Shown one piece after another: positions 4,896 to 16,482 of a stretch of 64,000 nucleotides of DNA. The number at the start of each line of letters is the position of its first letter. Positions within the stretch are counted from its first letter, which is position 1. The DNA comes from Sphingobium sp. Z007 (GTDB taxonomy: Bacteria; Pseudomonadota; Alphaproteobacteria; Sphingomonadales; Sphingomonadaceae): NCBI RefSeq assembly GCF_900013425.1, contig NZ_FBXK01000005.1:1860001-1924000 (forward strand). Direction: 5' to 3'. Made by a program: the position numbers and the translations under genes. The notes beneath the pieces were generated by a model. It was not told where the DNA came from and ran no database searches. It saw only the letters and a list, made by a program, of their open reading frames with translations.

Positions 4896-6119
4896 ATGAC
4901 GCCAAAGCCTATATTGCACTGCGACATGGCAGATATGGAACCCAAGGCGCAGGAAGCCAAACCGCTTCGCCGCGCCCGTACACCCCTCCCCCTCCCCCGC
5001 GAAGTCGCGTTGCTGTTGCAGGGCGGCGGTGCGCTGGGATCATTCCAGTCCGGGGCCTATGAACGGCTGGACGAGCTGGGCGTCGATGTCAGCTGGGTCG
5101 CAGGCATATCGATCGGCGCGATCAACGCGGCGATCATCGCGGGCAATCTGCCCCATCGCCGGATCAGCCGCCTCAGGAAATTCTGGTACACCGTGTCGGG
5201 CGGCATGCCCAATATCCTGCTGCCCGACATCGACCATGTGCGCGAAGCGGTGCATCTGGCGGCGGCAGGCACGGTAGCGACCTTTGGCGTGCCCGGGATG
5301 TTCCGCCCACGGCTGTGGCCCGCCATGATGATGCCCGAAGGCACACCGGGCGCGATCAGCTTCTATGACAGCGAGCCGCTCAAGACCACGCTCGACGCCT
5401 GCGTCGACTGGGATCTGCTGAACGACGGGCCGGTCCGCCTGTCGGTCGGCGCGGTCGATGTCGAAACGGGCAATTTCGAATATTGGGATACGCGCGGCCC
5501 CGGCGGCAATACCCGGATCGATGCGCGCCATATCATGGCGTCGGGCGCCCTCCCCCCTGGACTGCCGCCGGTCGAAATTGACGGGCGCTGGTATTGGGAC
5601 GGTGGCCTGGTGTCCAACACACCTCTGTCCCACGTGCTCAACCACCAAACCGAAGATATGCTGGTGTTCCAGGTGGATCTGTTCCCGGCCGAAGGGCCGA
5701 TGCCGCGGCAGATGACCGATGTCTATTCGCGCATGAAGGATGTGCAATATAGCAGCCGCACCCGGCAGGTGACGGACCAATATCTGCGCCTGCGCCGTGA
5801 GCATGGCGCGATCAAGGCGCTGCTCGACAAGCTGCCGCCCGACATGCAGGACGGGAGCGAAGCGCAGGCCTTGCGGCAGTGCCTGGATCAAGGTTCGGTC
5901 AACATCGTCCACCTGATCTATCGATCGCGCGCCTGGGAAAGCGGGGCGAAGGATTTCGAATTTTCCCGCTCGACGATGCTGGATCATTGGAGCCAGGGCC
6001 GCGATGCGGTGGAGGAAGTGATGCACAAGGGCGACCTGATCGCGCGCAACATCCTGGACGGCAAGAGCGCGACCTTCGACCTCGATTCCCCCGATCATCT
6101 CAAGGAGAAAAAGGCATGA
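4896..6119 (+). CDS. Patatin-like phospholipase with DUF3734 C-terminal region
   Basis: A 407-residue serine lipase/acyl hydrolase. The patatin fold is shown by the oxyanion Gly-rich loop QGGGALGSFQSGAY (about 42-55), the nucleophile elbow GISIG with Ser72, and the catalytic Asp in WDGG at D235. The C-terminal part (about 260-400) fits DUF3734, usual in the longer bacterial patatins. It has no signal peptide, so it probably acts on lipids or polyesters in the cytoplasm. The stop overlaps the start of 3-hydroxybutyrate dehydrogenase as ATGA, a pairing common in alphaproteobacteria. Substrate is not known. In-frame ATGs at 4926 and 4935 are possible alternative starts. Confidence 0.9.
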   Translation: MTPKPILHCDMADMEPKAQEAKPLRRARTPLPLPREVALLLQGGGALGSFQSGAYERLDELGVDVSWVAGISIGAINAAIIAGNLPHRRISRLRKFWYTVSGGMPNILLPDIDHVREAVHLAAAGTVATFGVPGMFRPRLWPAMMMPEGTPGAISFYDSEPLKTTLDACVDWDLLNDGPVRLSVGAVDVETGNFEYWDTRGPGGNTRIDARHIMASGALPPGLPPVEIDGRWYWDGGLVSNTPLSHVLNHQTEDMLVFQVDLFPAEGPMPRQMTDVYSRMKDVQYSSRTRQVTDQYLRLRREHGAIKALLDKLPPDMQDGSEAQALRQCLDQGSVNIVHLIYRSRAWESGAKDFEFSRSTMLDHWSQGRDAVEEVMHKGDLIARNILDGKSATFDLDSPDHLKEKKA

Positions 6120-6907
6120 GCAAGAGCTTGTCAGGCAAGACCGCGCTGATCACCGGGTCCACATCCGGCATTGGCCTCGCTTATGCCAAGGCGTTGGCCG
6201 GCGAAGGCGCCAATATCGTCATCAATGGCTTTGGCGATGCCGATGGAATCGAGAAGGAGCGGGTCGGGCTGGAGGCGCTCAGCGGCGCCAAGGCGCTCTA
6301 TTCGAGCCACGACCTGACCAAGGTCGATCAGATCGAAGCCATGATGCGCGAGGCCGCCGACACATTCGGCGGGGTCGACATCCTCATCAACAATGCCGGG
6401 ATGCAGCATGTTGCGCCGGTCGAAGACTTCCCGATCGACAAATGGGATCTCATCATCGCGCTCAATTTGAACGCCGCCTTCCACACCAGCCGGCTGGCCA
6501 TCCCTTATATGAAATCCAAGAAATGGGGGCGCATCATCCAGACCGCGTCCGCCCATTCGCTGGTCGCATCCCCGTTCAAGAGCGCTTATGTCACCGCCAA
6601 GCACGGGCTGGCGGGCTTCACCAAAACGGTGGCGCTGGAAGTGGCGACCGACGGCATCACCGCCAACTGCATTTCGCCGGGCTATGTCTGGACGCCGCTG
6701 GTGGAAAACCAGATCCCCGACACGATGAAAGCGCGCAACATGACGCGCGACCAGGTGATGAACGATGTGCTGCTGGCGGGCCAGCCGACCAAGGAATTCG
6801 TCACCGCCGAGCAGGTTGCGGCGACCGCCTTGTTCCTGTGCAGCGATGCCGCGGCCAATATCACTGGCGGCAACCTCAGCATCGATGGCGGCTGGACCGC
6901 ACAGTAA
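6116..6907 (+). CDS. bdhA: D-3-hydroxybutyrate dehydrogenase (SDR family)
   Basis: NAD-dependent short-chain dehydrogenase that interconverts 3-hydroxybutyrate and acetoacetate, the entry of PHB breakdown products into central metabolism. The 263-residue protein has TGSTSGIG for cofactor binding near residue 13, NNAG, and the YVTAK catalytic pair. The segment SAHSLVASPFKSAYVTAKHG and the C-terminal DGGWTAQ are characteristic of bacterial BdhA. ATG overlaps the patatin stop (ATGA), implying coupled translation; a GGAG site lies within the end of the patatin gene. A strong bidirectional terminator follows. Confidence 0.93.
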   Translation: MSKSLSGKTALITGSTSGIGLAYAKALAGEGANIVINGFGDADGIEKERVGLEALSGAKALYSSHDLTKVDQIEAMMREAADTFGGVDILINNAGMQHVAPVEDFPIDKWDLIIALNLNAAFHTSRLAIPYMKSKKWGRIIQTASAHSLVASPFKSAYVTAKHGLAGFTKTVALEVATDGITANCISPGYVWTPLVENQIPDTMKARNMTRDQVMNDVLLAGQPTKEFVTAEQVAATALFLCSDAAANITGGNLSIDGGWTAQ

Positions 6908-6917
6908 CGGTTCGCCC

Positions 6918-6964
6918 AATGAAAAGACCCACCGTCCCGCAACGGGCCGGTGGGTCTTTTCATT
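6918..6964. terminator. Bidirectional intrinsic terminator between convergent genes
   Basis: A perfect 17-bp inverted repeat (AATGAAAAGACCCACCG at 6918-6934 and its complement at 6948-6964) encloses a loop that itself contains a CCCG/CGGG inner stem. A-tracts on one arm and T-tracts on the other let it end both bdhA (plus) and the DUF2384-like gene (minus). Confidence 0.9.
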
Positions 6965-6978
6965 TAAGGGGGCAGATG

Positions 6979-7266
6979 TCAGGCGACGGGTGGCGTCAGC
7001 ACGCGCAGCACCGATTGCAGCCCGTCCTCGCTGGTCGTCGCCAGCGCCAGCGGACGATCGGCCAGTCCGTCATGCTGGCTGTTGAGAAACAGGATGGCGT
7101 CCGATGCGCCCAGCGTCTCTATCGCCATACGCGTGATGCGGCCCTGCCGTTCGGCGGCATCGGGGGCCAGGCGTACGGCATTGCGCGGGGTAAAGCGGCG
7201 CCCGGACATGCTGCGTCCGCCGGTGGAGGGAGCCGGGGTCTGCTCGGCAGGTGTTTCGTCTGTCAT
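6979..7266 (-). CDS. Small protein with a DUF2384/MbcA-ParS-like C-terminal motif
   Basis: A 95-residue protein with a disordered Pro/Thr-rich N-terminus. Its C-terminal half reads AIETLGASDAILFLNSQH, then RPLALATTSEDGLQSVLRVL. That layout (helix, FLN, RPL-x-LA, G-x-x-x-V-x-x-x-L) resembles the toxin-binding domain of Xre/MbcA/ParS antitoxins, but there is no HTH and no RES or other toxin gene beside it. An antitoxin role is therefore not supported by context. The start lies two bases after the stop of the 42-residue gene upstream, so it is the last gene of a three-gene unit. Confidence 0.68.
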   Translation of the reverse strand: MTDETPAEQTPAPSTGGRSMSGRRFTPRNAVRLAPDAAERQGRITRMAIETLGASDAILFLNSQHDGLADRPLALATTSEDGLQSVLRVLTPPVA

Positions 7267-11215: not shown

Positions 11216-12205
11216 CTATTGCGGGCGATGCCCCTTGCGCCATTTGGTCAGCAGGTGCCGCGCCAGCATCAGCGGCGGCATCCGCAGCCAGTGCGACCGC
11301 ACGAAGAAGGCGAAGACCAACAGCTTGCGGCTTTCCCGGCCCCATCCGTCGCGTGCGAGCAATCGCGCGCGCACCAGCCCGTCCCAAAGGGTCAGGCGCG
11401 CGCCCGCGCCATAGATCGCACGCGCCAGTCGCTGCGCCTGCCGGACATGGGCGGCAAGACCATGATGTGCAGCGCGCGCTGCCAGCGCGGCGGTATCGGC
11501 ATCGGGCAGCAGGCAATATATGTCCCACAGGTTACGCAGACCGCCCTGCATGTCACCATCTGCCAGCATATGCGCGACCGAATGGACGATCCGGTCCTCG
11601 ACCGAGAGGATATATAATCCATTGGTTATATGAATAGCGTCCGCGATCATCGCCGCCGCATCGGCCGTCTGGCGCGCGGTCAGTGGCAATATGGTATGAT
11701 GCACGTCGATCATCCGGTCGCGATCGACATGGATCATCGGCGGCAGTTCATGCATCCACTGGCGATAATAGGCGTCGTCATAGGGGTCTTCCTTGACCCA
11801 CTCCCATCCCGCCGCGATCAGCGCGCGCTCCACCGCCGACATCGCGTCGCGCGGCACGAGAATGTCGAGATCGCCAATAAACCGCCCCTGCCCGGCGCGC
11901 AGGCCCGCCGCCACATAGGCCGCCCCCTTGAGCAGCACCAGTTTAACATCCACGCCGCGCAACGCCTGCGCAGCCCGGTCCGCCTCCCACAGCGCCTGCT
12001 GTGCCTCCCGCCCGCTGTCGCGCCGGGCGTCATCCAGGATCGGCCGCACCGCATCCGGCAAGGCGACGCACTCCAGTCGATAGGCGAGCGTCCCGATCAG
12101 CCGCTCCGCCCGCGCCGCGGCGAGCAGGCGGTTCCAGCCTTCCGCATCGAGCGCCCCGACCGAAGCCGGATCGCGCAACGTGCGCACCAGCAACGCCGCG
12201 CTCAT
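11216..12205 (-). CDS. Nucleotidyltransferase family protein of the HPr-rel-A cluster
   Basis: A 329-residue protein of the uncharacterised PF14907-type nucleotidyltransferases. LLKGAAYVAAG precedes GDLDILVPRD (about 111-120), where D112 and D114 fit the metal-binding pair; IDVHHTI and VEDRIVHSVAHML follow. Related enzymes occur in RiPP clusters; the substrate here is unknown. ATG overlaps the HprK-related kinase stop (ATGA), so the two are translationally coupled. It is the last gene of the minus-strand cluster. A basic C-terminal region (HLLTKWRKGHRPQ) ends the protein. Confidence 0.86.
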   Translation of the reverse strand: MSAALLVRTLRDPASVGALDAEGWNRLLAAARAERLIGTLAYRLECVALPDAVRPILDDARRDSGREAQQALWEADRAAQALRGVDVKLVLLKGAAYVAAGLRAGQGRFIGDLDILVPRDAMSAVERALIAAGWEWVKEDPYDDAYYRQWMHELPPMIHVDRDRMIDVHHTILPLTARQTADAAAMIADAIHITNGLYILSVEDRIVHSVAHMLADGDMQGGLRNLWDIYCLLPDADTAALAARAAHHGLAAHVRQAQRLARAIYGAGARLTLWDGLVRARLLARDGWGRESRKLLVFAFFVRSHWLRMPPLMLARHLLTKWRKGHRPQ

Positions 12206-13065
12206 GCCAGTTTCTCCCACAGCCGATCGACCATGGCGATGGCGTCGTCGCCGGAGGGGAAATCGATCGCCCGCGCCGGCACATGGCGGACGAAGCGGGT
12301 GAGCGCGGTGAAAGCCGGCTCGCCCAGCGCGACATAGTTGGTCGATGCCTGGGTCAGGCGCATGAAGATTTCGCCCTCCCCCAGCGGTCGCACCGCAGCG
12401 TCGTGGCCGAAACGGGGGAAGAGCAGCAAAGCGGGCATCCCGCCCTCCCCCATGCGCGACACCGCGTCGGCGCGCGGCACCATATGGCGGATGTCGCCCT
12501 TCGCCGTCGCCGCCAGCAACGGTCCCATGCGCGGTTCGCCGACCGCCTGGGTCACCACCTCTATCGCCCGATTCTTAAGGCTGACGAGGCGAGGAAAAGG
12601 CAGGATCGCACCGCTATCCATGTCGAGCAACGCGAACTCGTCGCCCATGAAGCGCCAGCCGCGTTCGCCCAGCAAGGCCGCCAGGGTCGATTTGCCGGAC
12701 CCCGATTCGCCGGTCATCACCAGCACGCGCCCGTCTTTCTCCACGCTCGACGCATGGAGCAGCAGGTGCCGCCGCCAGCCCAGCGCCATTTGCAGGTTCA
12801 TGCCCATTTCGGCGGCCAGCAGACCATGGGCCAGGCTCATCGGCGCGGCGTCGGCCAAGCCATGGTCGCCGGTGATGAAGATGGACGGCCGCACCCAGCG
12901 CCGCGCCAGGCCGGTGGGCTGAAGCCGGACGGTGAAGTCAGCGATCGCGCCCCGCACATCGGGATAGGCCGCATAGAGCCGCGCCAGGTCCGCGATCGGC
13001 TGCGGCCAGGCGGACCCGATGCGAAACGTCGCCGGACCGATGCGCAGGGTGACGGCGTGCCTCAT
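12202..13065 (-). CDS. HprK-related kinase A (HPr-rel-A system)
   Basis: A 287-residue protein related to the kinase domain of HPr kinase/phosphorylase but lacking its N-terminal domain. It shows LLLHASSVEKDGRVLVMTG, a P-loop GESGSGKST at 119-127, and GDEFALLD at 141-148. There is no ptsH (HPr) gene nearby, so HPr is unlikely to be the substrate. HprK homologues phosphorylate peptides in some lasso-peptide pathways (PadeK, ThcoK). ATGA overlaps tie it to the PqqD-like gene upstream and the nucleotidyltransferase downstream. Family name from memory; function inferred only. Confidence 0.88.
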   Translation of the reverse strand: MRHAVTLRIGPATFRIGSAWPQPIADLARLYAAYPDVRGAIADFTVRLQPTGLARRWVRPSIFITGDHGLADAAPMSLAHGLLAAEMGMNLQMALGWRRHLLLHASSVEKDGRVLVMTGESGSGKSTLAALLGERGWRFMGDEFALLDMDSGAILPFPRLVSLKNRAIEVVTQAVGEPRMGPLLAATAKGDIRHMVPRADAVSRMGEGGMPALLLFPRFGHDAAVRPLGEGEIFMRLTQASTNYVALGEPAFTALTRFVRHVPARAIDFPSGDDAIAMVDRLWEKLA

Positions 13066-13358
13066 ACGGGACGGACCAGTCCCAGCGCGACGAGCGCGCC
13101 GAGATGCGCGTCGATCTCCGCCACGGCATCGTCCACCGGCCCCAGATCATAGTCGCGCGCCAGCCGGTCGTGCATCGCCTGCGCGCTCACGGGCGCGCCG
13201 TCGGCCATGTGCTCTAATATCTCCGGCACCGGGCTGATGACCATATGGGTCTGGCCCGACCGATGATGGTAGAGCAGCACGAGATCGTCGAGGACGCAGG
13301 TTGTTACCGCGTCCGCCTCGTCCCGGCGATAGGCTGTCGCTCCGTCCAAATCCGGCAT
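13062..13358 (-). CDS. PqqD-like protein of the HPr-rel-A system
   Basis: A 98-residue protein with a PqqD-like winged-helix layout: VTTCVLDDLVLLYHHRSGQ as the beta-hairpin, then VSPVPEILEHMADG, then helices ending LGALVALGLV. PqqD-type domains bind leader peptides (RRE function) in RiPP pathways. No PQQ biosynthesis genes are present. Its stop overlaps the kinase start. The ATG at 13358 has only a weak TTTGGG site. The family matches what databases call HPr-rel-A system PqqD, as I recall it. Confidence 0.82.
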   Translation of the reverse strand: MPDLDGATAYRRDEADAVTTCVLDDLVLLYHHRSGQTHMVISPVPEILEHMADGAPVSAQAMHDRLARDYDLGPVDDAVAEIDAHLGALVALGLVRPV

Positions 13359-13414
13359 CCCAAACTACTGTCCATCTCGCTGTAGCGCGAAGGCGTAGCG
13401 AAGTGCCTAACGCA

Positions 13415-14575
13415 TCAGGATAGCGCTGGCGACCGGACGGGTTGCGGCGCGGGCGCACCCACCAGCCCTTCGAATGCGCGCAGATAGCGATCGAGCGCGC
13501 GCTGTACGCCATGGTCGCGCGTCGCCGCCGCCAACATGGCAGGCGGCGCGGGGTGCGCCAGCGCACGTTCGATCGCATGGGCGAAGGCTGCCGCATCGCC
13601 CACCCGCACGACCGGATGCTGCCCCGCTTCCGCCAGAAGCGCACGGATATTGGGCGTGCTATCGGTCGCCACCACGCCCGTGCCGCAGGCCAGCGCCTCG
13701 ATCAGGGTAGCGCACAGCCCTTCCCATCGCGACGGCTGGAGCAACAGGTCCGCGTCTGCCATCAGCGCCGCAAGGGCGTCAGGGTCACCGACATAGCCGG
13801 TAAAATCGACGCGATCGGCAATGTCCAGCGCCTGACATTGCTGCTCCAGATCCGCGCGCAGCGGCCCTTGCCCGGCGATGGTCAGCCGCCAGTCGAGATG
13901 GGGCAGCCGCGCCAGTGCGGCGAGCGCCGTAGCCTGATCCTTTTGCGGCGTCAGCCGCCCGACCATCAACAGCCGGCACGGATCGCCCGGCTCGCGCGCG
14001 ATCCGCCCATTGCGGGCCTGTTCCATGGCGCGCGTCACCGTCGGGCGAGGCAGCAGGCGGATGTCGCCGCTCTGCGCCAGCAGGGCGCGGTCATGTTCGC
14101 CCATAACGATGGTGAGATCGCTCAGGCGCGCGATGGCGCGAAAACGAAGCAAGCGGGCCAGTGCGCCGGGGCCGCGCTGACCGGGCCGCACGATAGGATT
14201 GGAAATGCGGCCGACCGCTTTCGTATCGGTGCCCAATGCGGCAAGCGCGACCAGCATGTTGCTCTGGTTGCCTGCCGAATAGAGGATGTCGGGTCGATAG
14301 CGCCGGACCATCGCGGCCAGCGCCGGAAATTGCGCGATCATCGAGAGGCGTCGGATGCCGCCGGGCGCAGGCACGCGTCGGACGGTGAGCGCGGAATCGA
14401 TCAGATGCGCGGCGGGACCATCGGTGCGCGCCATCCACAATTCGACCGGAATGCCGCGCTGGAGCAGGTGATTGGCCAGCAATATGGCGACGCGATCCAG
14501 GCCGCCATCGCCCGGCTGGTACAGATAGATGGCCACCGAAAAAGCACGCCCCGCAGGGCGGCCGAACTGAAACAT
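13415..14575 (-). CDS. Glycosyltransferase family 4 in the HPr-rel-A cluster
   Basis: A 386-residue GT-B fold glycosyltransferase. The N-terminal domain has YQPGDGGLDRVAILLANHLL; the C-terminal domain has LMVGRLTPQKDQATAL and the donor-binding stretch LLQPSRWEGLCATLIEALAC with the EGLCATLIE signature of GT4. Donor and acceptor are unknown. It lies on the same strand between the Tat-signal protein and the PqqD-like gene (56 bases to the latter), so it may glycosylate a cell-surface product. The last residues are Pro/Ala-rich. Confidence 0.88.
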   Translation of the reverse strand: MFQFGRPAGRAFSVAIYLYQPGDGGLDRVAILLANHLLQRGIPVELWMARTDGPAAHLIDSALTVRRVPAPGGIRRLSMIAQFPALAAMVRRYRPDILYSAGNQSNMLVALAALGTDTKAVGRISNPIVRPGQRGPGALARLLRFRAIARLSDLTIVMGEHDRALLAQSGDIRLLPRPTVTRAMEQARNGRIAREPGDPCRLLMVGRLTPQKDQATALAALARLPHLDWRLTIAGQGPLRADLEQQCQALDIADRVDFTGYVGDPDALAALMADADLLLQPSRWEGLCATLIEALACGTGVVATDSTPNIRALLAEAGQHPVVRVGDAAAFAHAIERALAHPAPPAMLAAATRDHGVQRALDRYLRAFEGLVGAPAPQPVRSPALS

Positions 14576-14596
14576 GGAAGCTGCCTCGCCAAATAT

Positions 14597-14614
14597 CGAA
14601 CCATTTCAGGTTCG
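14597..14614. promoter_or_regulatory. Short palindrome before the glycosyltransferase gene
   Basis: CGAACC (14597-14602) and GGTTCG (14609-14614) form a perfect 6-bp inverted repeat around six bases, 22 bases upstream of the glycosyltransferase start and after the Tat-signal gene. It could be an operator or a weak mRNA hairpin. Confidence 0.3.
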
Positions 14615-14672
14615 ACGTCGTCAACGCGGGCAATCCGTATCTGTTCAAACCATTACGGGTGCGACGATCGGT

Positions 14673-15098
14673 TCAGCGCGGCATTTGCAGCGAAGCGTAG
14701 CAGGTAAAGCCGCTGGTTCCGCGCTGGAGCCGGCGGATATAATTGAGATAGGCCTGATTCTGTTCATAGCCGGTCCCGGGCAGCGGACGGCCGCGCAGCG
14801 CCTGCTTGACCTGTTCGCCGGTGAAGCTGCGGCCGGTGCCGGGATAGGCGCCGGGCGTGCCGGCCGGGACGAGTTGGCCGTTGGGGGCGATGAAATTGCC
14901 CGCCCGGCTCTGGTCGGGCACAGGGATGGTGCAGTTCAGCACCGACGCGGCGGTGTTGGCCAGCGCGGGACGGATCGACACGATCGCCGACGCCGCGGCC
15001 GCGCCGCCCATCAACAACTGGCGACGGGACGGGACGGCCAGCGATGGCGCGTCATCGCCACCTTCGGGGCTATCTTGTTCGGACTTCGGGTCGCTCAT
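14673..15098 (-). CDS. Tat-signal small protein heading the HPr-rel-A cluster
   Basis: A 141-residue protein with a twin-arginine signal: acidic leader, SRRQLLMGG with arginines at 25-26, a hydrophobic Ala-rich segment, and a likely cut after ALA at 47. The mature part (about 94 residues) holds two cysteines, C56 and C133, and GQLVPAGTPGAYPGTGRSFT; it ends CYASLQMPR. No enzyme motif is visible. Tat export implies folding or cofactor loading in the cytoplasm. Same strand as the glycosyltransferase, 97 bases upstream. It could be a substrate of the cluster, which is inference. Divergent from phoR. Confidence 0.75.
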   Translation of the reverse strand: MSDPKSEQDSPEGGDDAPSLAVPSRRQLLMGGAAAASAIVSIRPALANTAASVLNCTIPVPDQSRAGNFIAPNGQLVPAGTPGAYPGTGRSFTGEQVKQALRGRPLPGTGYEQNQAYLNYIRRLQRGTSGFTCYASLQMPR

Positions 15099-15198
15099 AT
15101 CGTCATGATCCGCTCGTCACGCTTGCCAAAGCGTAAAGATTGCACGCTATTGCAATAAGCCATCGCAGCAATTGCGCGACAAATCCAGCGCGGTAACC

Positions 15199-16482
15199 AT
15201 GAATCGACTGACAACTTCGCAGATCACCGCCTCCCTTGCCATGCTGTTGCTTGGCGCTGGGGGCGCATTATTGCTGGGCGCGTCGCCCATCGCCATCGCG
15301 CTGCCGATCCTGGGCGGCTTGCTCGTCCTGCTCATCTGTGCCGAGGGCGTGGCGACGCGGCAGTCCGCACCCGCCCCGCTAGATGCGCCCGACCTCATCG
15401 CCCATCCCGATTTCGCCAGCCTGCTGGAGGGGATTTCCGATCCCCTGATGCTGGTCGAGCGCAGTCGCATCGTGCGCGCGAATCGCGCCGCGCAACGCCT
15501 GCTGGGCACGCATATCGAGGATGAGGATGCGCGCATCGCGATCCGCCACCCCGCCGCGGCCGAGCGGCTGGCCAGCACCGCGCCGCTCGCCGAGCCGGTC
15601 ATGGTCGAACTGGTCGGCCTGGGCAGCCGCGATCAGCGCTGGCAGATGCGCATTGCGCCAGTCGGCCAGGTCGCTGACATGCGCCGCCTGGTCCATCTGG
15701 TCGATCATAGCGGCACCCACGCGGCCGAACGGATGCGCGTCGATTTCGTCGCCAATGCCAGCCATGAACTGCGTACGCCGCTGGCCGGCATATTGGGCTT
15801 CATCGAGACGCTGGCCGACCCCGAACTGGGCAAGGACGATGAAACCCGCCAGCGCTTCCTGAAGATCATGGACGGCGAGGCGCGGCGGATGCAGCGGCTG
15901 ATCGACGATCTCATCTCATTGAGTCGGATCGAGGCGGAGAAATATCGCGCGCCCGACACGCTGGTCGATCTGTCCGAACTGGCGGCCGAAGTCGTCGGCG
16001 TGTTCCGATCCAGCCATGGCGACCGTGGCCGCGAGGTCGAAATGGAGATCGCGCCGCAACTGCCCAGCGTCCAGGGCGATCGGGCGCAACTGTCGCAGCT
16101 GCTGCACAATCTGATCGGCAATGCGGTCAAATATGGTCGCCCCGGCACGCCGATACGCGTGACGCTGAATGAGGGGCCAAGCAGCATGACGCGCCTGACC
16201 GTAGCCGACGAAGGCGAAGGGATCGGCCCCGATCACCTGCCCCGCCTGACCGAGCGATTTTATCGCGTCGATTCGGGGCGCAGCCGGGCGATGGGCGGCA
16301 CAGGCCTGGGCCTCGCCATCGTCAAGCATATCGTCGAGCGGCATCGCGGGCGCTTCGATATTGCCAGCACTTTGGGCAAGGGCACCACCATCACCGTGCT
16401 GTTACCCCCGCCGATGGAAGAGGCACCAAATAAAAGCGACGAGAAAAGGCGGCCTTCGGCGCTTTCAGGGACCATGTCATGA
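15199..16482 (+). CDS. phoR: Phosphate regulon sensor histidine kinase
   Basis: A 427-residue inner-membrane kinase. Two adjacent membrane helices (about 10-28 and 33-52) are followed by a PAS-like segment, the H-box FVANASHELRTPL with His189, and N, G1 (DEGEGIG), F and G2 (GGTGLGLAIVKHI) boxes. It phosphorylates PhoB when phosphate is scarce and is held off by PstSCAB-PhoU. The short periplasmic loop is normal for PhoR. The start is the ATG at 15199; a TTG at 15172 would add nine residues. It heads the pst block, while phoB is at the far end. Confidence 0.93.
   Translation: MNRLTTSQITASLAMLLLGAGGALLLGASPIAIALPILGGLLVLLICAEGVATRQSAPAPLDAPDLIAHPDFASLLEGISDPLMLVERSRIVRANRAAQRLLGTHIEDEDARIAIRHPAAAERLASTAPLAEPVMVELVGLGSRDQRWQMRIAPVGQVADMRRLVHLVDHSGTHAAERMRVDFVANASHELRTPLAGILGFIETLADPELGKDDETRQRFLKIMDGEARRMQRLIDDLISLSRIEAEKYRAPDTLVDLSELAAEVVGVFRSSHGDRGREVEMEIAPQLPSVQGDRAQLSQLLHNLIGNAVKYGRPGTPIRVTLNEGPSSMTRLTVADEGEGIGPDHLPRLTERFYRVDSGRSRAMGGTGLGLAIVKHIVERHRGRFDIASTLGKGTTITVLLPPPMEEAPNKSDEKRRPSALSGTMS

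Follow-up and report, generated by a model that had tools for sequence, protein, structure and literature searches.

A Tat-signal protein conserved with the HPr-rel-A kinase module in Sphingomonadaceae is a candidate for modification and export

HprK-like kinases, nucleotidyltransferases (NTases) and PqqD-like proteins form a known toolkit for the tailoring of lasso-type peptides. Genes of these three kinds, together with a gene for a protein with a twin-arginine translocation (Tat) signal, were identified in Sphingobium sp. Z007. They lie in a stretch of 64,000 nucleotides that is part of contig C5 of the 4.94 Mb genome; this whole stretch is called the window below. Our analysis suggests that the Tat-signal protein, PqqD_rel_X, the kinase HprK_rel_A and the NTase NTP_transf_5 probably constitute one dedicated protein-modification and export system.

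Described relatives and the operon in the window

Paeninodin-type lasso clusters encode an HprK-like kinase that phosphorylates a serine of the precursor. In the pseudomycoidin cluster, PsmK phosphorylates serine, and the one or two hexoses on the phosphoserine are attributed to PsmN, with prior nucleotidylation left open; a lasso kinase, SyanK, is known from Sphingobium (PMC9266682, in its parts on these enzymes). The linear polyphosphorylated peptides (LPPs), reported from Bacillota in 2026, involve a discrete recognition element (RRE) of ribosomally synthesized and post-translationally modified peptides (RiPPs), an HprK-like kinase and a nucleoside triphosphate (NTP) transferase, and their linear precursor was observed with one to four phosphates. 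LppK polyphosphorylates Ser3 directly behind the leader, and LPP and paeninodin loci are often situated among capsule genes (PMC13381572, in its parts on these clusters).

The window locus resembles the LPP loci in its trio of RRE-like protein, HprK-like kinase and NTP transferase. LPP precursors of 35–200 aa have a conserved N-terminus and a variable C-terminus, a serine directly behind the leader is phosphorylated, and the loci lie among polysaccharide genes, which would be further points of likeness (PMC13381572, same parts). The LPP systems differ in that their clusters include a dedicated enzyme of signal-peptidase type as well as an MsbA-like transporter, and in that the leader bears a YxxP motif (same source). 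In the window, neither an SpI-like peptidase nor an MsbA-like transporter was found among the immediate neighbours of the operon, and a [Y/W]xxP motif is absent from residues 1–56 of the Tat-signal protein, which contain no Tyr or Trp. Its conserved N-terminal region is instead a twin-arginine signal, implying the general Tat route.

With the paeninodin and pseudomycoidin clusters, the locus shares the HprK-like kinase, a putative counterpart of the RRE (B1) proteins and an NTase related to one to which hexose addition on phosphoserine is attributed (PMC9266682, same parts). It differs from them in lacking a cyclase, a B2 peptidase and a lasso precursor, and its candidate substrate is a Tat-signal protein. 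Only two matches to PF13471 were found in the genome by Pfam search, both on contig C1; the operon and the genes on its low side, seven proteins in all, contain none. The initial annotation had described a lasso-type toolkit of PqqD-like protein, HprK-like kinase and NTase beside a non-lasso candidate, the Tat protein, and this description is supported. The bufferins and other MNIO RiPPs are similar in that a signal peptide replaces the leader and some precursors are protein-sized, but they use Sec rather than Tat and oxidative MNIO enzymes (PMC12452194, in its parts on precursors and enzymes). The terms twin-arginine and HprK are absent from the text of PMC12452194, and no MNIO enzyme was found among the operon proteins (kinase, PqqD-like protein, NTase, glycosyltransferase and Tat protein).

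All five genes are encoded on the minus strand. In the order of transcription, and with the motifs discussed below, they are:

14673..15098, minus strand: Tat-signal protein, putative substrate (precursor), 141 aa, no Pfam or NCBIfam family over cut-off
13415..14575, minus strand: family 4 glycosyltransferase (GT4), Glycos_transf_1 at 113.3 bits (cut-off 26.4)
13062..13358, minus strand: PqqD_rel_X, predicted RRE-like leader-binding protein, TIGR04353 at 70.3 bits (cut-off 35)
12202..13065, minus strand: HprK_rel_A kinase, TIGR04352 at 222.2 bits (cut-off 200)
12685..12711, minus strand: kinase P-loop GESGSGKST, residues 119–127, intact
11216..12205, minus strand: NTP_transf_5, NTase-fold enzyme, PF14907 at 160.6 bits (cut-off 31.2)
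11864..11872, minus strand: NTase DxD codons D112 and D114, metal-binding by analogy, invariant in 31 and 52 aligned proteins

The open reading frames (ORFs) and families given in the initial annotation were recovered at their places, with the core trio over NCBIfam or Pfam cut-offs, and the two ATGA overlaps (12202–12205 and 13062–13065) and the intact P-loop can be read directly from the sequence. The kinase and the PqqD-like protein are the named HPr-rel-A pair, both passing the curated cut-offs. A search of open-licence PMC papers (titles and abstract starts) with the names HprK_rel_A and PqqD_rel_X returned no described substrate or function, in agreement with the earlier remark that databases name these families without a described function, and no description of the Tat protein or of the system was found in the same literature.

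Co-occurrence of the Tat-signal protein with the kinase

The 94 genomes of the genus that were searched include 84 with the kinase over cut-off and 85 with the Tat protein, and every kinase-positive genome carries the Tat gene (84/84). The nine genomes without the Tat protein likewise have no kinase over cut-off. The odd genome (G023) has no kinase over cut-off, and its Tat gene is at contig base 112; so close to the edge, a neighbour may be cut off. In a sample of 199 genomes of the family, 61 encode the kinase. A whole-genome, position-free search detected the Tat protein in 60 genomes at E 1e-5, all among these 61, with seven of the 60 matches weaker than E 1e-10; in the remaining kinase-positive genome (G572), our own profile located the Tat gene in the expected place. 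The Tat protein is thus present in 61/61 kinase-positive and 0/138 kinase-negative genomes of the family sample. The initial annotation had grouped the Tat protein and the GT4 enzyme with the three-gene core, and for the Tat protein this grouping holds in genus and family: the Tat-signal protein is core to the system.

Co-occurrence persists where linkage is broken. In G517 and at three further loci, two from genomes titled Sphingopyxis (L140 and L149) and one titled Sphingomonadaceae bacterium (L153), another gene precedes PqqD and the Tat gene is still present in the genome. The distance from Tat gene to kinase on the same contig is 163 kb in G517 and about 280 kb in G594. G516 has its Tat gene, together with a PqqD gene, on a contig other than that of the kinase and NTase.

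The survey was extended to 178 kinase loci. The set comprised the window, 60 genus, class and family loci chosen mostly from the tops of lists, 80 kept out of 215 relatives from one scan, and 40 of the 61 hits in a phylum sample, in which 61/398 genomes encode HprK_rel_A. Three of these 181 loci were dropped for identical kinase sequences, and the 178 are not a random sample. Named loci include Massilia, Duganella, Thiobacillus, Gallionella, Methylovulum, Thiohalocapsa and Zooshikella. In 165 of the 178 loci, from Alpha-, Beta- and Gammaproteobacteria, a homologous Tat ORF lies upstream of the kinase at a distance of no more than 2.1 kb; 163 of these come from profiles grown on three seed sets (7, 10 and 5 ORFs), and in L137 and L143 the homologue lies within a longer ORF. 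Most profile-found ORFs lie within 700 bp of the kinase (156, with 7 farther), and the called ORFs of two (L098 and L113) lack the twin-arginine part. Because only ORFs 100–2100 bp upstream of the kinase could be recruited, the agreement of the three seed sets, which arrive at almost identical ORFs, is in part built in; the control was the off-position count, with 3–4 matches out of position in 16621 ORFs. Elsewhere in the sequence around the kinase, a Tat homologue was found in L074, L183 (twice) and L222, and five further loci have the Tat gene elsewhere in the same genome (L110, L140, L149, L153 and L082; L110 and L082 are the loci of G517 and G516). L183 carries two tandem homologues downstream of the kinase (5667–7107) and none upstream.

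A generic Tat-signal detector flagged an ORF ending 150–700 bp upstream of the kinase in 162/178 loci compared with 141/1177 control gene starts. The flagged ORF is a family member in 152 of the 162 loci and another ORF in 10. A stricter first version had flagged 138/178; the controls, including 38/863 called genes, were run with the loosened version only. A fixed-length leader matrix found a leader in 120/178 loci and in 0/1482 background genes, and was replaced by profile hidden Markov models because the spacing is variable. The order Tat, PqqD, kinase, NTase recurs in the first 61 neighbourhoods (the window and L062–L121), 53 of which could be mapped with our gene calls, and is not an accident of a single genome. 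NTP_transf_5 was detected by our own profiles in 171 of the 181 loci.

Features of the precursor, its enzymes and their neighbourhood

The Tat-signal protein consists of a polar N-region, a twin arginine, an h-region, an ALA site (45–47) and a mature part with two cysteines. Two alignments of Sphingomonadaceae Tat proteins, A3 (28 proteins) and A5 (30 proteins), were used to assess conservation, and two serines and two cysteines are conserved throughout. The conserved codons in the window are:

15021..15026, minus strand: twin-arginine codons R25–R26, with R26 invariant in A3 and A5
14943..14945, minus strand: Ser52 codon, directly behind the signal peptide, first-choice candidate modification site, invariant in A3 and A5
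14931..14933, minus strand: Cys56 codon, invariant in A3 and A5; Cys56 may form a disulfide with Cys133
14700..14702, minus strand: Cys133 codon, invariant in A3 and A5
14691..14693, minus strand: Ser136 codon, second-choice candidate modification site, invariant in A3 and A5

By what we take to be the usual definition of a Tat signal, the protein has the features of a Tat substrate: RR at 25–26, ALA at 45–47, R26 and A47 invariant in A5, and a TatC gene in the genome (C5:401292). Precursors of all groups share a polar N-region, an RR(R)xLLK-like motif, an AxxVPaIxTLxSGAALA-like stretch and a cysteine a few residues on. The first serine lies no more than nine residues from the mature start in 153 of 158 precursors by a rule-of-thumb AxA site, which is a weak statistic because serine is common near the mature start. 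Of 77 sphingomonad precursors, 74 carry a C-terminal [ST]C[WYF]xS-like motif, compared with 37/86 others; the split was made by locus number, with at least two family members (L072 and L083) counted among the others. Many of the precursors without this motif carry SGNLS- and SPGYWKNH-like motifs.

The precursor family matches little in databases. The window protein has no Pfam family at E 0.1, and its best NCBIfam match is formate_TAT (E 0.081, 13.3 of 48.45 bits). None of 10 representative precursors exceeds a Pfam or NCBIfam cut-off, with one sub-threshold Pfam match. A database search with the sphingomonad alignment returned 3580 proteins at E 0.001 among 7997 scored; among the 120 matches listed, the name is hypothetical or uncharacterized protein wherever one is given. 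The AlphaFold2 model (pLDDT 65; best Foldseek E 2.9) supports no fold claim, and a sequence search of the PDB yielded nothing at E 0.01, with the best match (E 0.015) around the signal.

In the kinase, H104, K125, D142 and E143 are invariant among 13 aligned relatives. A PDB search with the kinase profile retrieved HprK 1jb1 at E 8.5e-4, over profile positions 112–152 only, and a PDB search with the NTase gave nothing at E 0.01 (best E 0.42). The evidence that PqqD_rel_X is RRE-like is at family level; its relative in L075 weakly matches the lasso PqqD profile NF033530 (E 0.0015, 18.7/70 bits).

A diverged second module was recognized from sub-cutoff kinase hits in the genus. Its kinase is about 367 aa long with a front part that we read as PqqD-like, and has D-D at the third and fourth catalytic positions, judged by eye. 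The loci studied were six of the 11 longer sub-cutoff genus hits and all three family hits. An NTP_transf_5 profile match is present in four of the six genus loci, with PF14907 confirmed in two. Directly upstream of the diverged kinase lies a Tat peptide of 90–100 aa with a Gly/Pro/Asn-rich C-terminal end, which has a serine at +2 behind AIA in 9/9 Sphingomonadaceae loci (L258–L263 and L266–L268); the one scanned, from L261, matches no Pfam or NCBIfam family. The diverged module is rare (3/199 family-sample genomes at E 1e-40 and 2/240 class-sample genomes at E 1e-25), and with its short Tat peptides it repeats the kinase–Tat pattern.

On the plus strand beside the Tat gene lie a histidine kinase gene and a gene for a binding protein of the phosphate-binding type, which we take by resemblance to be PhoR and PstS, and TetR and SDR genes lie on the other side of the operon. 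The immediate neighbour is:

15199..16482, plus strand: PhoR-like histidine kinase (HisKA, HATPase_c), divergent neighbour of the Tat gene in Sphingomonadaceae, genomic context and not part of the system

The Tat gene is divergent from phoR within 700 bp in 62 of the 65 loci where both were called, and also where it is unlinked from the module (the genomes of L140, L149 and L153, and G594). The gene caller called no Tat gene in G517, where the match position is beside and opposite phoR. The Tat gene keeps its phoR-divergent place after the module has moved away (window 14673–16482 and L251–L257). Control of the phoR/Tat promoter through a Pho box was considered and found no support: the best match to a presumed consensus scored a mean of 8.34/14 in 62 intergenic regions compared with 8.03 in shuffled ones.

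At the non-sphingomonad loci, 108 of 219 eligible flanking genes were scanned (every second gene, 110, minus two NTase genes). Matches at E 1e-10 include 11 to TIGR03087 (XrtA-type glycosyltransferase) and 4 to TIGR02915 (PEP-CTERM-box response regulator), given as raw counts without a background rate, and Poly_export is matched by 3 of the same genes. Given the polysaccharide genes beside these loci and the frequent position of LPP and paeninodin loci near capsule genes, it is plausible that the module has a role in the envelope or in polysaccharide.

Proposed mechanism and competing explanations

The best reading, by analogy, is that the system works like the paeninodin and LPP RiPPs, except that the leader is a Tat signal and the substrate is protein-sized. 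While the precursor is still in the cytoplasm, its Tat-signal N-terminus would be held as a leader by the PqqD-like protein, and the kinase would place one or more phosphates on a serine, Ser52 being the first choice and Ser136 the second. The phosphoserine would then receive a hexose or a nucleotide from the NTase. Once finished, the protein would leave through the Tat translocase and lose its signal near the ALA site, and a Cys56–Cys133 bond may close outside the cell. We infer this scheme of Tat leader, serine phosphorylation, capping and export as the simplest reading of the same trio with a constant Tat-signal partner. ATP-dependent modification must take place inside the cell, and the Tat translocase can carry folded, finished proteins.

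Ordinary lasso-peptide tailoring, in which the module would serve lasso peptides made elsewhere in the genome, was weighed and rejected as the main explanation, and its chance of being right is close to negligible. The enzyme families are the same, a Sphingobium lasso kinase is known, and contig C1 carries two lasso-like clusters (L269 and L270), each with a PF13471/Transglut_core3 match, an Asn_synthase protein of 582–585 aa and a putative precursor of 43–44 aa. The absence of a lasso cyclase and leader peptidase noted in the initial annotation thus stands for the surroundings of the operon and does not extend to the genome. Against the lasso explanation, no kinase, NTase or PqqD_rel_X profile match was found in the L269 and L270 stretches, the only PF14907 match in the whole genome is the window NTase, and the module has its own constant Tat partner. 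A larger system in which the GT4 enzyme and the module together glycosylate the Tat protein, as the initial annotation had envisaged, is very unlikely. The GT4 gene does lie between the Tat gene and PqqD in the window, and 83 genus genomes have Tat gene and kinase on one contig and strand with a gap of 303–548 bp in 41 and of 1233–1798 bp, about the space of a GT4 gene, in 42. The 41 genomes without room for it exclude GT4 as a core component. By BLAST, the window and L065 are the only two of the 53 mapped neighbourhoods with a GT4 close to the kinase; in L127–L130 an ORF of 386–392 aa lies between Tat gene and PqqD, and the two scanned (L127 and L129) are GT4. GT4 is, as far as seen, an insertion within one genus and outside the core, and it could still add decoration in strains that have it.

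Two further explanations keep the four genes together and change what the enzymes do. The Tat protein may be a partner or effector that serves outside the cell in the same process in which the cytoplasmic trio acts on a metabolite, a lipid-linked sugar or HPr. Co-occurrence and synteny would look alike for a substrate and a partner, and non-sphingomonad modules are often near polysaccharide genes, as seen from the TIGR03087, TIGR02915 and Poly_export matches. This explanation is nevertheless unlikely: a PqqD/RRE-type protein, whose NCBIfam name is peptide chaperone, is what we take to be the sign of a peptide client, and the part common to all precursor groups is the leader and the residues directly behind it, which are visible to cytoplasmic proteins. 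Distinctly less probable is direct attachment of a nucleotide by the NTase, similar to AMPylation or UMPylation, with the kinase in a side role and a regulatory or functional nucleotide in place of a phospho-sugar. PsmN, a relative from a kinase-containing cluster, argues against it with hexose adducts on phosphoserine, though nucleotidylation is left open there (PMC9266682, same parts).

Several observations weigh against the Tat protein being the modified substrate of one fixed module. LppN, the NTase of the closest cluster type, was without effect in a heterologous host (PMC13381572, same parts). Lasso kinases have His-Lys-Asp-Asp, whereas the fourth position here, matched by eye, is Glu143. 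Invariance of Ser52 and Ser136 is confined to the sphingomonad alignments, the C-terminal motif is present in 37 of the 86 precursors counted among the others, and the serines of many beta- and gammaproteobacterial precursors are located behind the first cysteine. In G040, the match to the Tat gene (C3:49243–49664) is in two pieces with internal stops while the kinase is open. No precursor was found in five loci, two of which are too short upstream (L146 and L179) and three of which returned none (L224, L225 and L238). By our own profiles, PqqD lies no more than 450 bp upstream in 154/178 loci and the NTase directly downstream in 157/178, so either the order has exceptions or some genes escape the profiles. 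Outside Sphingomonadaceae, a Tat peptide precedes only 3 of 10 diverged kinases of the same class (the ten with long kinase alignments, nine short ones being dropped; one flagged ORF in L050 was discounted as chance). Co-occurrence would be expected for a partner no less than for a substrate. The Fisher p of 1e-50 for the family sample ignores kinship and, the genomes being related, overstates independence; the genomes with broken linkage are more telling. Evolutionary-distance correlations over 25 loci are uninformative, since the module is not singled out (Tat–kinase 0.78, Tat–NTase 0.70, Tat–PqqD 0.55, Tat–PhoR 0.68 and kinase–PhoR 0.79).

Going beyond the preferred reading of a modified and exported Tat protein, we tentatively suggest a proteobacterial class of modified proteins in which the Tat signal is the leader and the RRE–kinase–NTase module, inside the cell, places a phosphate-linked sugar at a serine of the mature N-terminus. 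Through its phospho-sugar, the exported glycophosphoprotein might bind, prime or anchor envelope material or exopolysaccharide, XrtA-type polysaccharide genes being frequent neighbours of the module in beta- and gammaproteobacteria, and the class might comprise two substrate families, the two-cysteine protein and the short Gly/Pro/Asn-rich peptide. This fuller picture is speculative and rather doubtful in its entirety. The HPr-rel-A pair, for which no described function was found, gains a concrete substrate candidate. If the preferred reading is true, Tat export would deliver proteins modified by a kinase and an NTase, RRE-type recognition would reach Tat signals, and the chemistry of phosphorylated RiPPs would go beyond small peptides and include a conserved protein exported by Sphingobium, Sphingomonas and many beta- and gammaproteobacteria.

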